This document shows positions 28,428 to 57,881 of a DNA stretch of 64,000 bases, piece after piece. The DNA is from Microbulbifer celer (GTDB lineage Bacteria > Pseudomonadota > Gammaproteobacteria > Pseudomonadales > Cellvibrionaceae), in NCBI RefSeq assembly GCF_020991125.1, contig NZ_CP087715.1, positions 4,255,501-4,319,500 of the forward strand. The letters are read 5' to 3'. Position 1 is the first letter of the stretch; each line of letters opens with the position of its first letter. Both the position numbers and the translations under genes were made by a program. Under the pieces are notes generated by a model that did not search any database, was not told the origin of the DNA, and was given only the letters and a program-made list of their open reading frames with translations.

Positions 28428-29150
28428 ATGACCTCAGAAAACCGACAGGCCCCCGCCGCCATGTTGCTCGCCGCCGGTTTCGGCAAGCGTATGCGGCCCC
28501 TCACCGACCGCCTCCCCAAACCGTTGATCCCGGTACTGGGCAAACCGCTGATCGAATACACCCTCGAACGCCTCGCCGCCGCTGGTATCCAGCGCGTCGT
28601 CATCAACCTCGCCTACCGCGGCGACCAGATCCGCGACCACCTCGGCAACGGTAACCGCTGGGGCATACAGATCCAGTACTCGGAAGAAAACGAGCCCCTG
28701 GAAACCGCCGGCGGCATCACCAGAGCACTGCCGCTGTTGGGCGACGGGCCTTTCTTGGTCGTGAACGGCGACGTCTGGTGCGATTTCGACTTCAAGCACT
28801 GGCTCGAAAACCCGTTACCGGAAGCTTGTCCGGGGCGCCTGTTGATGGTCCCCAATCCGCCGCACAATCCCGAGGGAGATTTTGGTATAGATGGGGGAAG
28901 AGAGGACGATACCGAACGTGGCCTCTTGTCCGGCACCGCCAAACCGCGCTTTACCTATGCCGGTATCAGCTGGCTGAGACCGGAAATCCTCACCACTTAT
29001 CCACATGCGCGGGACTGCTACGGCCTGGGCGAGGTTTTTACCCACAATGAGGATCTTATGCAGGCGGAGGTTTATCGCGGCGATTGGTGTGACGTGGGAA
29101 CGCCGGAGCGGTTGAGCAAGTTGGAGGAACGCCTGCGCAGTGATGTGTAA
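28428..29150 (+). CDS. murU: N-acetylmuramate alpha-1-phosphate uridylyltransferase
   Basis: A 240-residue sugar-1-phosphate nucleotidyltransferase. The N-terminal loop LLAAGFGKRMRPLTDRLPKP carries the UTP-binding Gly/Arg and the catalytic Lys; VVNGDVW holds the metal-binding Asp. It converts MurNAc-1-P to UDP-MurNAc, bypassing MurA, and so confers intrinsic fosfomycin tolerance where the pathway exists. It follows amgK by 27 bases, forming the recycling operon. Confidence 0.92.
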   Translation: MTSENRQAPAAMLLAAGFGKRMRPLTDRLPKPLIPVLGKPLIEYTLERLAAAGIQRVVINLAYRGDQIRDHLGNGNRWGIQIQYSEENEPLETAGGITRALPLLGDGPFLVVNGDVWCDFDFKHWLENPLPEACPGRLLMVPNPPHNPEGDFGIDGGREDDTERGLLSGTAKPRFTYAGISWLRPEILTTYPHARDCYGLGEVFTHNEDLMQAEVYRGDWCDVGTPERLSKLEERLRSDV

Positions 29151-29202
29151 CCAGCTAAAACCTGTCAGCTGACGAAGTAAAGAACTACAAATTGAAGGCT
29201 GG

Positions 29203-29308
29203 GTGCTGGGTGGCGCTTTTCAGGATCGTCGCAAACAGGATGTTTGCGCCGAAGCGCCCAGGGATGGGTTCACAGCGCTCCTGAAAAGCGCCACCCAGTG
29301 CCCGGCCG
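29203..29308 (-). repeat. Intergenic palindromic element, copy A
   Basis: The outer arms 29206-29225 and 29279-29298 are perfectly complementary over 20 bases. Within them lie an inner stem CGCAAAC/GTTTGCG (29230-29236 with 29242-29248) with loop AGGAT, and the conserved core, on the minus strand GTGAACCCATCCCTGGG. Read on the minus strand the order is outer arm, core, inner hairpin, outer arm, as in copies B, C and D. It lies between murU and rpe. It is the most diverged of the four copies. Confidence 0.75.
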
Positions 29309-29380
29309 CCACTGAGGGCCATTAAAAACGAGAACCCTTGGGGCGACCTAACTCTAAACAGAAGAGATTGAGACGAGAAC

Positions 29381-30049
29381 ATGCCAGACTACAAAATTGC
29401 ACCTTCCATTCTTTCCGCCAACTTCGCCCGCCTGGGGGAAGAGGTGGACAATGTCCTCGCCGCGGGCGCCGACTGGGTGCACTTCGATGTGATGGACAAT
29501 CACTACGTCCCCAACCTCACCATTGGCCCCATGGTGTGCAAAGCCCTGCGCAAACACGGCGTCGAAGCGCCCATCGACGTGCACCTGATGGTCGAGCCTG
29601 TCGACGACATGATCCGCATGTTTGCCGACGCCGGTGCCAGCTACATCACCTTCCACCCGGAAGCCAGCAAACACGTCGACCGCTCCCTGCAACTGATCCA
29701 ATCCCTGGGATGCAAGGCAGGCCTTGTGTTCAACCCCGCCACCGGACTGGACACCGCCAAGTATGTACTCGACAAGCTCGACATGATCCTGCTGATGTCG
29801 GTCAACCCCGGCTTCGGCGGGCAGAAATTCATTCCCGCCACCCTGGATAAACTCAAACAAGCGCGCAAACTGATCGACGATAGTGGGCGGGATATCCGCC
29901 TGGAAATCGACGGCGGCGTAACCCGGGATAATATCCAGGAAATCGCCAAAGCCGGCGCCGACAGCTTTGTTGCCGGCTCAGCGATTTTCAATGCAGATGA
30001 TTACGCGGAAGTGATCAGCGCCATGCGTTCTGAGCTCGCACAGGCATAG
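29381..30049 (+). CDS. rpe: Ribulose-phosphate 3-epimerase
   Basis: A 222-residue TIM-barrel enzyme interconverting ribulose 5-phosphate and xylulose 5-phosphate in the pentose phosphate pathway. Motifs [35 protein letters not shown] and LEIDGGV provide the metal and phosphate ligands, with the two catalytic Asp residues. Length agrees with E. coli Rpe (225). It is flanked on both sides by palindromic elements A and B. Confidence 0.95.
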
Positions 30050-30068
30050 CGGTTTAAGCTCGCTTAGA

Positions 30069-30187
30069 GGCGGTACCGCTACCGGGAACAGCCTTGCCAG
30101 ACACGCCGTGAACCCATCCATGGGGGCTCTTCTAAAACGTCCCTGTTTTAGAAGGTCTGGCAAGGCTGTTCCCGGTAGCGGCACCTT
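30069..30187 (+). repeat. Intergenic palindromic element, copy B (type copy)
   Basis: Arms 30072-30102 and 30155-30185 pair over 31 bases with one mismatch. Between them are the core CGTGAACCCATCCATGGGG (from 30107) and a perfect ten-pair inner stem, CTTCTAAAAC (30129-30138) with GTTTTAGAAG (30145-30154), loop GTCCCT. The ends read GCTACCGGG and CCCGGTAGC. It sits between rpe and the convergent ptsP end. The core and inner loop are shared with copies A, C and D; the outer stem sequence is not. Confidence 0.85.
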
Positions 30188-30245
30188 CGCGTTGGGCCGC
30201 AGTGGTTCAATTCAGTAAGGGTTATATTATTAGTAAGCTGGAAAC

Positions 30246-32525
30246 CTACCCCCCCAAACTCGTCTCCGCCGGCTGGGGCTGCACCAGCCCACTGATCCCC
30301 AGATCCTGCAGATACCCGTGCAGCTTCTCTTCAATCTGCTCCGGACTCTCCATTTTCAGCACCTGCTGTAACAATCGATCCAGATCCGACTTGTTCACTG
30401 CTCGCAACGCGGCCTTTACCCGTGGCAGGTTGGTGGCGTTCATGGACAGGACGTCGTAACCCATTGCGACCAAGAGCAGCGCCCCGGCAGGGTCGCCCGC
30501 CAGTTCCCCGCAAATCCCCACCTTGGTGCTGGTTTCATGGCCGGCGGTAACCACCTGTAACAGTGCCTGTAACACCGCCGGGTGGAAGCCGTGGTAGATG
30601 CCGGCCACGCGGCTGTTGTTGCGATCCACCGCCAGCAGGTACTGGGTGAGGTCGTTGCTGCCGACGGACATGAAGTCTACCCGTGCGGCGAGTTCGCGGG
30701 CCTGGTACACGGCGGAGGGTACCTCGATCATGATGCCGAGCGGCGGGCGCTGGATTTTGTAGCCTTCGTCCACCAGTTCGTCGTAGGCGCGGTCCACCAG
30801 GCGGCGGGCGGCTTCCAGTTCGCCGACGCCGCTGATCATGGGCAGCATGATGCGCAGGTTGTCGAGGCCGAGGCTGGCTTTCATCATCGCGCGCACCTGG
30901 CCGAGGAAGATTTCCGGGTGGTCGAGGGTGACGCGGATGCCGCGCCAGCCGAGGAAGGGGTTGGTTTCCTCAATGGGGAAGTAGCTCAGGGCTTTATCGC
31001 CGCCGATATCCAGGGTGCGCATGGTGACCGGGCGGGGGGCAAAGGCCTGGAGTTGCTCGCGGTAGATTTCCCGCTGTTCTTCTTCCGAGGGGAAGCGGTC
31101 CCGCAGCAGGAAGGGGACTTCGGTGCGGTAGAGGCCGACACCTTCGGCGCCGCGCTCGAGGGAACGCACGACGTCTGCCATCAACCCGGTATTGACCCAC
31201 AATCTTACCCGGTGGCCATCGGCGGTTTCACAGGGGAGCTTCGCCAGGTGGTCGAGGTTGCGCGCCAGTTCGCGCTCTTCTTCGGCGATGTCTTCAAAGC
31301 GACGTTTGAGCTCGGCGCTGGGATGGATGTGCAGCTCGCCGCGGTAGCCGTCCAGTACCAGATCGACACCGTCGATCTGCTCCCAGGGCAGTTCCTGGGC
31401 ACCCATTACTGCGGGCACACCCATGGCGCGGGCGATGATGGCAACGTGGCTGTTGGCGGAACCTTTGATGGAGATGATGCCGGCGAGTCTTTCTCGGGGC
31501 ACTTCTGCCAGTACTGCGGCGGTGAGCTCTTCGCCCACGAGGATGGTGTTATCGGGGTAGTCGCGCTGACTCTGTTCCTGCTGGCGCAGGTGCATCAGGA
31601 CCCGGGCGCCCAGGTCGCGTACGTCGGCGGCGCGGTCGCGGAAGTAGGAGTCGGACATGGCCTCGAAACGCCGCACATGCTCCAGCATGACTTCGGCCCA
31701 GGCGCGGGCGGCAGTGAGTTGCTGGCGGATGCGCTCGCACACTTCGACGGCGATGGAGTTGTCGTCGAGCATGCTGATGTAGGCATCGAACAGTGCGCGC
31801 TCTTCCTTGTTCAGGTTGTCTTTGAGGCGCTCTCCCACATCGCGGATTTCTTCGCGCGCGGCGGCCAGCGCATGCTGGAACAGCGCCAGTTCCGCATCCA
31901 CATCCATGCTGCAGGCAAAGGGGACAGTAGCGAGATTGGCCGGAGGCGCAACGATATGCGCGCGGCCGATGGCGACGCCGGGGGAGGCGGCAAGGCCGAT
32001 GAATTTGGCTTCGTTGCGCTGCTGGCCGATATTGACCAGGGCACCGGTGGCTTCGGCGTGAGCGATGACGCCTGCCAGCTGGGCGGCAAGGGTGACCAGG
32101 AATGCCTCTTCCCCTTCATCGAAACGGCGGCGCTCGGTCTGCTGTACCACGAGTACGCCGAGCACATTGCGGTGATGGATAATGGGGGTGCCGAGAAAGG
32201 CGGAAAACTGCTCTTCGCCAGTGGTGGGGAAGTACTGGAACGCGGGGTGTGCCTCCGCCTGCTCCAGGTTGATGGGCTCTTCGCGGGTGACCACATTACC
32301 CACCAGGCCTTCGCCCGGGGCCATGTGCACCTGACCTACCGCGTCCTGGTTCAGGCCCTGGGTGGCCATGAGCACATAGTTACCCGATTGTTTGTCGAGC
32401 AGATACACCGAGCATACTTTGGTGTTCATCACCGCCTGTACCCGGCGGACGATGATATCCAGCACCGAGGGCAGGTCCCTGGCGGCGTTGACTTCCTGAA
32501 CGATACTGCGCAGTGATCCGAGCAA
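30246..32525 (-). CDS. ptsP: Phosphoenolpyruvate-protein phosphotransferase of the nitrogen PTS
   Basis: A 759-residue EI-Ntr, first enzyme of the regulatory PTS-Ntr chain (PtsP, NPr, EIIA-Ntr). An N-terminal GAF domain (about 1-160) precedes the EI part: the phosphorylated His lies in IKGSANSHVAIIA near residue 355, and the PEP-binding barrel has GVGLYRTEV and GSNDLTQYLLAVDR. The start is TTG 32525, with GAGGAAG seven bases upstream, and the sequence LGSLRSIVQEVNAA matches the family N-terminus. rppH lies upstream as in other gammaproteobacteria. Confidence 0.95.
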   Translation of the reverse strand: MLGSLRSIVQEVNAARDLPSVLDIIVRRVQAVMNTKVCSVYLLDKQSGNYVLMATQGLNQDAVGQVHMAPGEGLVGNVVTREEPINLEQAEAHPAFQYFPTTGEEQFSAFLGTPIIHHRNVLGVLVVQQTERRRFDEGEEAFLVTLAAQLAGVIAHAEATGALVNIGQQRNEAKFIGLAASPGVAIGRAHIVAPPANLATVPFACSMDVDAELALFQHALAAAREEIRDVGERLKDNLNKEERALFDAYISMLDDNSIAVEVCERIRQQLTAARAWAEVMLEHVRRFEAMSDSYFRDRAADVRDLGARVLMHLRQQEQSQRDYPDNTILVGEELTAAVLAEVPRERLAGIISIKGSANSHVAIIARAMGVPAVMGAQELPWEQIDGVDLVLDGYRGELHIHPSAELKRRFEDIAEEERELARNLDHLAKLPCETADGHRVRLWVNTGLMADVVRSLERGAEGVGLYRTEVPFLLRDRFPSEEEQREIYREQLQAFAPRPVTMRTLDIGGDKALSYFPIEETNPFLGWRGIRVTLDHPEIFLGQVRAMMKASLGLDNLRIMLPMISGVGELEAARRLVDRAYDELVDEGYKIQRPPLGIMIEVPSAVYQARELAARVDFMSVGSNDLTQYLLAVDRNNSRVAGIYHGFHPAVLQALLQVVTAGHETSTKVGICGELAGDPAGALLLVAMGYDVLSMNATNLPRVKAALRAVNKSDLDRLLQQVLKMESPEQIEEKLHGYLQDLGISGLVQPQPAETSLGG

Positions 32526-54848: not shown

Positions 54849-54963
54849 GATGTTTTCAGTTCGGCAATTAAATTGGTTGAGGGTACAATATAACGCATTT
54901 TCTGCGGGATTTATTTGGACTACTGATTAGGAGTTCTGATAGATCTGCAAAACTTCGGGCGCA

Positions 54964-55087
54964 GGCATCGATACCGGGTACGCTTTCGCGAGACCGTCTG
55001 CGGCCAGGACGGCCGCAGCCGAGCCCCCATGGATGGGTTTACGGCGTGTCTCGCGAAAGCGTACCCGGTAGCGGTGCCGCCACCGAA
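54964..55087 (-). repeat. Intergenic palindromic element, copy C
   Basis: Arms 54972-54994 and 55048-55070 pair perfectly over 23 bases, with weaker pairing further out. The inner stem CTGCGGCC/GGCCGCAG (54998-55005 with 55011-55018) has loop AGGAC. The core on the minus strand reads CGTAAACCCATCCATGGGG, as in B. The outer and inner stem sequences differ from the other copies. It lies between argE and argA, in reverse orientation to B. Confidence 0.85.
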
Positions 55088-57693: not shown

Positions 57694-57845
57694 ATGGTGG
57701 CGGTGACGCTACCGGGTGCGAACTTGTGAGACACGCCGTGAACCCAGTCCGGCCGCTCCATCGCGGCGCCTTCGGCCCATGGGGGCTCTTCTAAAACATC
57801 CCTGTTTTAGAAGGTCTCACAAGTTCGCACCCGGCATCGCCACCT
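57694..57845 (+). repeat. Intergenic palindromic element, copy D
   Basis: Arms 57712-57732 and 57814-57834 pair perfectly over 21 bases and more weakly beyond. The inner stem CTTCTAAAAC/GTTTTAGAAG (57788-57797 with 57804-57813) is identical to that of copy B; the loop is ATCCCT. The core matches CGTGAACCCA...CCATGGGGG but carries an extra ~25 bases between CCCA and CCATG that include GGCCG and CGGCC and can fold on themselves. It lies between the convergent DUF6314 and PhzF genes. Confidence 0.85.
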
Positions 57846-57881
57846 TCTCGGAGATTGACGCACGTTGATTTAACCGTTGGG

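Follow-up and report, generated by a model that had tools for sequence, protein, structure and literature searches.

What a long palindrome does in the gap between rpe and ptsP of Microbulbifer celer is the question raised by a 64,000-nucleotide stretch of its chromosome (the window), which holds this element and three relatives. A sequence-only reading had described the four as a family built on one plan, had kept them apart from REP elements, and had offered three options: a MITE-like mobile element, a structured RNA or a terminator. We followed the family through this genome and others, and tentatively propose a role in the binding of the regulator CsrA.

A dispersed family of palindromic elements

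All four palindromes are present, and their RNA folds lie 6.7 to 10.9 standard deviations below those of shuffled sequences (for the copy at 57697-57849, one strand was folded). Their ends proved to extend up to about 11 nt further (Table 1). For the loops, first read as RTCCYT, the better reading is A(N)GGAY on the opposite strand, referred to below as the GGA strand.

A covariance model (R1) was built from 36 diverse copies of the same genome (alignment A1), which were drawn from the 71 of 89 copies passing length and edge filters and which match R1 by construction. In the 4.35-Mb genome, R1 matched no fewer than 149 copies over their full length (E ≤ 2.1e-11), in addition to one fragment; this is a lower bound, since 150 of 2840 candidates were scored. 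The core pattern, with up to three mismatches, matched at 133 places, as compared to two for the reversed pattern. The further copies on which the sequence-only reading had made the family depend are thus plentiful. All 150 copies longer than 100 nt are distinct. One copy from the core-pattern list was added by hand, giving the 151 copies used for position and subtype counts.

By their cores, these 151 copies comprise 87 of subtype A, 24 of subtype B, 18 of subtype C (TACANGGATGTA) and 22 others. One shared plan is followed only approximately by the four window copies. That at 29192-29312 belongs to the second subtype: its core, read on the GGA strand, is GCGCCCAGGGATGGG, and the GCTACCGGG/CCCGGTAGC ends are missing. 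The copy at 54959-55083 has GTAAACCC in its core, and in 57697-57849 an insertion of ~29 nt at about 57747-57775 breaks the core hairpin. A length of 130 nt is exceeded by 31 of the 151 copies. The long copies include the one with the window insertion 57747-57775 and those at genome positions 2376616, 3747713, 463054, 323821, 2140484 and 3985527. Two types of recurrent insert were seen by eye, a GAGCTAGGCGCCCCCC-type piece ahead of the core and a GGCCGCTCC...GGCGCCTTCGGCC hairpin within a loop.

Table 1. Copies of the element in the window and parts of the copy between rpe and ptsP.
Feature	Position in window	GGA strand	Evidence
Subtype A copy	30067..30190	(-)	R1 138.8 bits, E 5.9e-27; fold z -10.9 on this strand
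Subtype B copy	29192..29312	(+)	R1 102.2 bits
Subtype A copy	54959..55083	(+)	R1 136.9 bits
Copy with interrupted core hairpin	57697..57849	(-)	R1 124.8 bits; sequence
Outer stem, 5' arm	30156..30185	(-)	A1 columns 6-35
Outer stem, 3' arm	30072..30101	(-)	A1 columns 91-120
Inner hairpin, loop AGGGAC at 30139-30144	30129..30154	(-)	Fold and A1
Core hairpin GCC-CCC-AUGGAU-GGG-UUCAC-GGC, loop AUGGAU at 30116-30121	30105..30127	(-)	Fold and A1
About 25 nt preceding the hairpin, weakly conserved among copies	30191..30215	(-)	Column information profile, 89 copies

Architecture and covariation

Every copy is most informative on the strand opposite to the core as originally read. The order along the GGA strand is GCGAAGG, an outer stem of ~28 pairs, an inner hairpin, the linker AGCC, the core hairpin, the returning arm and CCGCCAC. 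Each of the two hairpins that the long stem encloses has a GGA loop of the CANGGAYG type. The core hairpin has the layout GCC-CCC-ANGGAU-GGG-UUYAC-GGC, and the inner hairpins, whose stems are of several unrelated kinds, present A(N)GGAY in their loop.

In A1, changes on both sides were found in 33 of 43 pairs, with 344 cells as compared to 98 in shuffles, and the covariation score was 0.580, against 0.190 for shuffled and at most 0.125 for slid alignments. A second alignment, A2, contains 56 elements of other genera, one for each of 34 named taxa and 22 from class loci; it leaves out the class loci L274, L282, L284, L291, L292, L293, L300 and L303, and one named locus with a short flank. Here both sides changed in 25 of 28 pairs, a count reached by 16 of 500 shuffles, with 429 cells versus 140 and a score of 0.635, where shuffled alignments reached 0.180 and slid ones no more than 0.183. 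Around ANGGAU, the core stem alternates among UAC/GUA, CCC/GGG, UCC/GGA and other pairings; since its arms differ between genera and are invariant in A1, the core stem covaries between genera.

The compensatory changes thus reach beyond the four copies in which they had first been noticed, and the statement that selection or copying acts on the fold is borne out, also between genera. However, the near-perfect middle of the stem may stem partly from copying at the DNA level, and covariation alone is therefore no proof of an RNA function.

Conservation of the paired GGA loops

The inner loop is absent from every search pattern, and its GGA was recovered in 124 of the 128 own copies that an automatic parser could resolve (22 of 150 remained unparsed). 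It was also present in 98 of 121 elements at the named-record loci L106-L224, a few of which are from Microbulbifer, and at 20 of 29 class loci, the chance locus L284 included. By eye, some of the misses are parser errors and others are variants with TCC in the upstream hairpin. Such a TCC instead of GGA before the core occurs in some genera, at L119, L137, L142, L146, L180, L282, L291 and L293, where it resembles an oppositely oriented neighbour element.

In A2, which is a selected set, GGA stands in the inner loop of all 56 elements. Its columns hold 1.5-1.9 bits, as compared to 0.01-0.3 bits for the outer-arm columns away from the junction and up to 1.0 for the three nearest to it. The core loop, UU.AC and GCG reach 2.0 bits but were fixed by the search patterns, so that these values prove nothing.

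One strand of the element folds

A palindrome that acts only as double-stranded DNA should lack any asymmetry between its strands in the mismatches of its stem. Outer-stem mismatches were therefore counted with a symmetric pairing score. In 150 own copies, read on the GGA strand, G·T outnumbered A·C by 200 to 24 and A·G outnumbered C·T by 119 to 13. The same direction was observed in 119 elements outside Microbulbifer (G·T 149 versus A·C 45; A·G 118 versus C·T 24) and, more weakly, in A2 (40 versus 24; 55 versus 10). The mismatch cells are not independent, so that p-values would be overstated; the direction is nevertheless shared by several columns and by the elements of other genera. By folding energy, too, the GGA strand was the more stable one, in 101 of 150 own copies and in 91 of 119 others.

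The excess of G·T over A·C favours folding of the GGA strand as a single strand, which supports a structured single strand as in the structured-RNA option; the asymmetry speaks for a single strand and not for RNA specifically. In the own copies the G·T excess sits distally (columns 6-17, G·T 176 versus A·C 11), whereas the middle of the stem (columns 18-34) is nearly all Watson-Crick and shows no strand asymmetry (19 versus 13). A middle part so nearly perfect and so free of bias suggests a further contribution, in which one arm is copied onto the other.

Distribution in the genus and the class

Among 58 genomes, M. celer included, R1 gave matches at E ≤ 0.001 in 39, namely in 35 of 37 Microbulbifer genomes and in four of 21 outside the genus. 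The number of copies per genome ranges from 0 to at least 61 within Microbulbifer. The 21-base core pattern was found at 119 loci or more, and most titles among the matches listed are of Gammaproteobacteria; the taxa listed are Microbulbifer, Stenotrophomonas, Xanthomonas, Halomonas, Marinobacter, Shewanella, Rheinheimera, Alteromonas, Methylotuvimicrobium, Pseudomonas, Erwinia and more. A search of plasmids with one copy as query gave no match. The core also occurs in a record titled Bacillus subtilis strain SK7B5 (L209), possibly by contamination or as a mislabelled contig, and in two putative viral contigs of 39-42 kb (L225, L226), one of which holds it twice.

With the six arm bases left free, the core pattern matched in 29 of 369 genomes of the class, from 26 of 272 genera, and the reversed control gave 0 in every row shown. 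One match (G348) is unpaired and was counted as chance, leaving 28 carriers among the 369. A single genome (G305) holds 169 core places. Among the places listed, the core arms are TAC/GTA in 14 genomes, CCC/GGG in eight, TCC/GGA in six and TGC/GTA, with one wobble, in two. TGC/GCA, ACC/GGT, GAC/GTC, GCC/GGC and TCC/GGG (wobble) occur once each, as do the mismatched arms CAC/GTA, CGC/GTA, TAC/ATA, CCC/CGG and GGT/CAG, the last being that of G348.

Position relative to genes

Genes were called by a script, the output of which was inspected for the window. None of the 151 copies lies inside a called gene; 107 occupy tandem gaps, 38 convergent and six divergent ones. The element-free gaps of the same stretches include 29 convergent and 50 divergent. 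In the tandem gaps the GGA strand is sense in 66 copies and antisense in 41 (p 0.02), a bias too weak for read-through from upstream as the sole source of RNA.

In the window, with gene names read from the open reading frames, the copy at 30067-30190 lies between the convergent rpe (+) and ptsP (-), and that at 29192-29312 lies between a nucleotidyltransferase-like gene (+) and rpe (+) with its GGA strand sense. The copy at 54959-55083 is located between an argE-like (-) and an argA-like (-) gene with its GGA strand antisense, and that at 57697-57849 sits between convergent genes. In M. celer, rpe and ptsP are adjacent with the element between them (window 30049-30246). In the other genomes of the genus for which both matches are listed, the two genes lie apart, so that a rearrangement joint may lie at this element. 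Of 29 rpe/ptsP loci in the genus that were searched with R1, five matched strongly and a sixth weakly, and at two loci (L317, L319) an R1 match lies near the rpe match, apparently on its upstream side.

The copies are spread across the whole chromosome, with 58 of 151 located within 10% of its length on either side of coordinate 1 (22 in the first tenth, 36 in the last; p 2e-7). If the origin is assumed at coordinate 1, no significant bias between the replication strands was observed (66 versus 85, p 0.14).

A hairpin that is long, GC-rich and located at gene ends, with an excess in convergent gaps, is what would be expected of a bidirectional intrinsic transcription terminator. However, TTTT within 15 nt past the stem was found in just two of 150 copies on the GGA strand and in 13 of 150 on the other, a scan of 29100-30300, which includes two copies, revealed no terminator-like site, and three copies lie, by eye, within a separate terminator with a T run of its own. 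The terminator option was accordingly dropped as very improbable.

Dispersal and mobility

The copies at 3457983 and 4144126 are 97.5% identical and those at 4024221 and 4101283 are 96.7% identical. Their flanks are mostly unrelated, the second pair having a 14-nt block in common just upstream, which indicates that a short unit moves. Of the MITE-like option, this dispersal as a short unit stood, while the inverted-repeat ends did not: of 150 copies, three (2722767, 2508705, 2310143) lie inside a two-sided inverted-repeat unit, TAATGCTGTTCACTTAA, and a fourth (2587230) has it on one side. By eye, the inverted-repeat units with three copies sit within intrinsic terminators, and duplications of 10-11 bp are visible at two inverted-repeat copies. 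A MITE with terminal inverted repeats and target duplication was rejected on the basis of these counts.

Comparison between relatives revealed three gaps in which one genome has the element and the other lacks it, the edges being blurred; the own loci had been chosen for holding elements, and these gaps yield no rate. In one gap, four genomes (M. celer, L085, L076, L079) have all retained the element. Its outer stem has undergone compensatory change there, and the whole inner hairpin differs between M. celer and L085.

The Y1 transposase (PF01797) gave no match at E ≤ 0.001 in three genomes with 48, 38 and 18 matches to the element (G012, G022, G036); it is present in low-copy genomes, and M. 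celer has a single Y1 gene. A REP/RAYT system was rejected, as presence of the transposase does not track copy number. The earlier separation from REP is supported: the element has no GT(A/G)G head, is ~124 nt long and does not depend on a Y1 transposase.

Two accounts at the DNA level were weighed against this background. The element may be a non-autonomous mobile DNA whose single-stranded hairpins are read in trans by a transposase or recombinase, with the loops and the folding strand as recognition features. The ~97% identical copies in mostly unrelated flanks and the filled and empty gaps point in this direction, and single-stranded DNA, too, would agree with the folding of a defined strand. 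However, the distribution of Y1 genes and the absence of a significant bias relative to the assumed direction of replication speak against it, and we consider this account unlikely, if still a serious rival.

Somewhat less unlikely, and likewise a serious rival, is a selfish or neutral palindrome of the REP/ERIC kind, tolerated at gene ends, where its long hairpin would at most shield mRNA 3' ends on either strand, and with arms repaired by hairpin-templated copying and gene conversion. It would fit the gene-end location and the absence from called genes, the weak orientation bias, the near-perfect stem middle, the variable copy number within Microbulbifer, and the inner hairpins that differ between orthologous copies as if exchanged. 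It does not fit the GGA that stays fixed in both loops while the stems change, nor the preponderance of G·T and A·G on just one of the strands, which is seen outside the genus as well.

A putative CsrA-binding element

The GGA in hairpin loops, and in pairs, is a feature of CsrA-binding RNAs, to which, like the folding strand and the pairing of the GGA loops, the sequence-only reading had paid no attention. According to passages of PMC7652899, CsrA/RsmA sites have the consensus RUACARGGAUGU, with mostly six-base loops and AC/GU pairing, and UACARGGAUGU is the core obtained by SELEX. In most carrier genomes the core version of the element is UACANGGAUGUA. As the likeliest function, held tentatively, we propose the binding of a CsrA dimer by a dispersed RNA element at 3' ends, which has the build of TwoAYGGAY and the spread of a repeat. 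The GGA strand would be transcribed, often within a 3' untranslated region, and its long stem would hold two hairpins side by side, with ANGGAY loops closed by C-G that may dock on both faces of one CsrA/RsmA dimer. Each copy would thereby equip a transcript end with a CsrA-binding clamp that may protect this end, and the copies together may act as a distributed CsrA sponge. They would spread as short units to gene ends and then evolve in place by compensatory change.

Several results argue for this proposal. GGA is kept in both loops while the stems vary and covary. The UAC/GUA core arms, left free in the search, fit the SELEX core of CsrA. The strand asymmetry, the alignment with TwoAYGGAY described below and the gene-end location (38 convergent versus six divergent copies) point the same way. 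csrA was matched in 27 of 28 carriers, and the CsrA of M. celer looks canonical by eye.

On the other hand, the sense orientation of only 66 of 107 tandem copies argues against it, as does the frequency of csrA among the remaining genomes, 286 of 341 of which have a match too; the co-occurrence thus runs in the right direction but is not significant (p 0.098; the carrier without a match is 75% complete). Further points against are that the weak relative Ysr224 is modelled on the opposite strand, that TwoAYGGAY matches are few and below the cut-off, and that the stem middle lacks strand asymmetry. The linker AGCC, UUYAC and GGCG are conserved although CsrA would not need them, but most of them were in the search patterns. 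Moreover, the stems of the element are long, and very stable stems may disadvantage CsrA binding, as stated in a part of the review PMC7652899.

A bolder version, which we regard as quite unlikely, sees the family as a mobile, genome-wide CsrA sponge of well over 100 two-loop clamps at gene ends, kept because it tunes the regulator: free CsrA would fall as bulk transcription rises, and Ysr224 would be a member described on the opposite strand. If CsrA binds the GGA strand, a global regulator gains a very large pool of sites in what appears to be genomic clutter, and since species of one genus carry from none to at least 61 copies, the effect is testable by comparison. Even without CsrA, one has to expect some protein that recognises an element which, in many genera, preserves its loops, varies its stems freely and folds from a defined strand.

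Comparison with known systems

At the gathering score, Rfam gave no match in the window, and at E ≤ 10 the eight matches on 29150-30250 included no TwoAYGGAY, Ysr224 or Csr RNA. Among the literature listings and passages covered, we recognised no paper that describes the element as a CsrA site or as a named family.

REP elements with their RAYT transposases are likewise high-copy extragenic palindromes with complementary changes, as reported in part of PMC2817692. In contrast to the short REPs in a table of that paper, the element measures ~124 nt; its edges are GCGAAGG and CCGCCAC in place of a GT(A/G)G head, and the GTAG of GGTAGC lies inside the stem. ERIC and the enterobacterial MITE-like repeats share the intergenic location and differ in their inverted-repeat ends, which here occur at three to four copies only. 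In Yersiniae, ERIC is said to affect neighbouring genes via RNA hairpins (a passage of PMC2267715). Integron attC sites, which have conserved end boxes and stand in a cassette array, were also considered; the copies of the present element are scattered along the whole chromosome.

The sponge RNAs CsrB, RsmX, RsmY and RsmZ also present multiple GGA motifs in hairpin loops, as outlined in PMC7652899. They are, however, single genes with many sites each, whereas here many two-loop copies are dispersed, with no promoter identified and no terminator within the unit.

The Yersinia sRNA Ysr224 (RF02770) gave 69 matches at E ≤ 1 in the M. celer genome. Of these, 43 overlap listed copies, all 43 on the opposite strand, and 26 lie at further places outside the copy list, six of which were inspected and are subtype C elements. 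Elements of this third subtype, with the core UACAGGGAUGUA, were found in this way at 1219602, 3421942, 2635467, 2971876, 3251510 and 4101493, near R1-listed copies and often ~200 nt off; the family is therefore larger than the R1 list. The best match scored 36.6 bits against a gathering score of 70, and five of 14 control genomes gave matches below the cut-off as well. Ysr224 is thus a weak relative, modelled on the opposite strand, with a real likeness in layout. It is multi-copy and transcribed in Yersinia ruckeri, according to a section of PMC12112432, and ranks among the 20 most prevalent sRNAs in a passage of PMC9029176. A dispersed repeat would explain this prevalence, and if the proposal made here is true, it helps to account for the abundance of this 'sRNA'.

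The closest likeness in build is to TwoAYGGAY (RF01731), in which an outer stem closes two hairpins with (A)NGGAY loops. In the M. celer genome its model matched at five places at E ≤ 10, none of them over the cut-off, and one of 14 control genomes gave a match too. In other genera, none of 18 loci matched at the gathering score and none of eight at E ≤ 1. Most own copies and the 26 tested loci of other genera are thus without a match, and the present family differs further in being a repeat of ~150 copies. However, the model aligns end to end with one own copy on the GGA strand, with both loops in register (39 bits, below the gathering score of 43; E 3.2e-5 for that stretch). The layout of two hairpins in an outer stem is the same, and the loops, ANGGAY or AGGAY, are wider than AYGGAY. 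TwoAYGGAY shares the Rfam clan CL00106 with rsmX, and its binding of CsrA is a prediction published by its authors' successors, in a passage of PMC4333381. If the reading preferred here is correct, TwoAYGGAY gains a high-copy relative in the Gammaproteobacteria.
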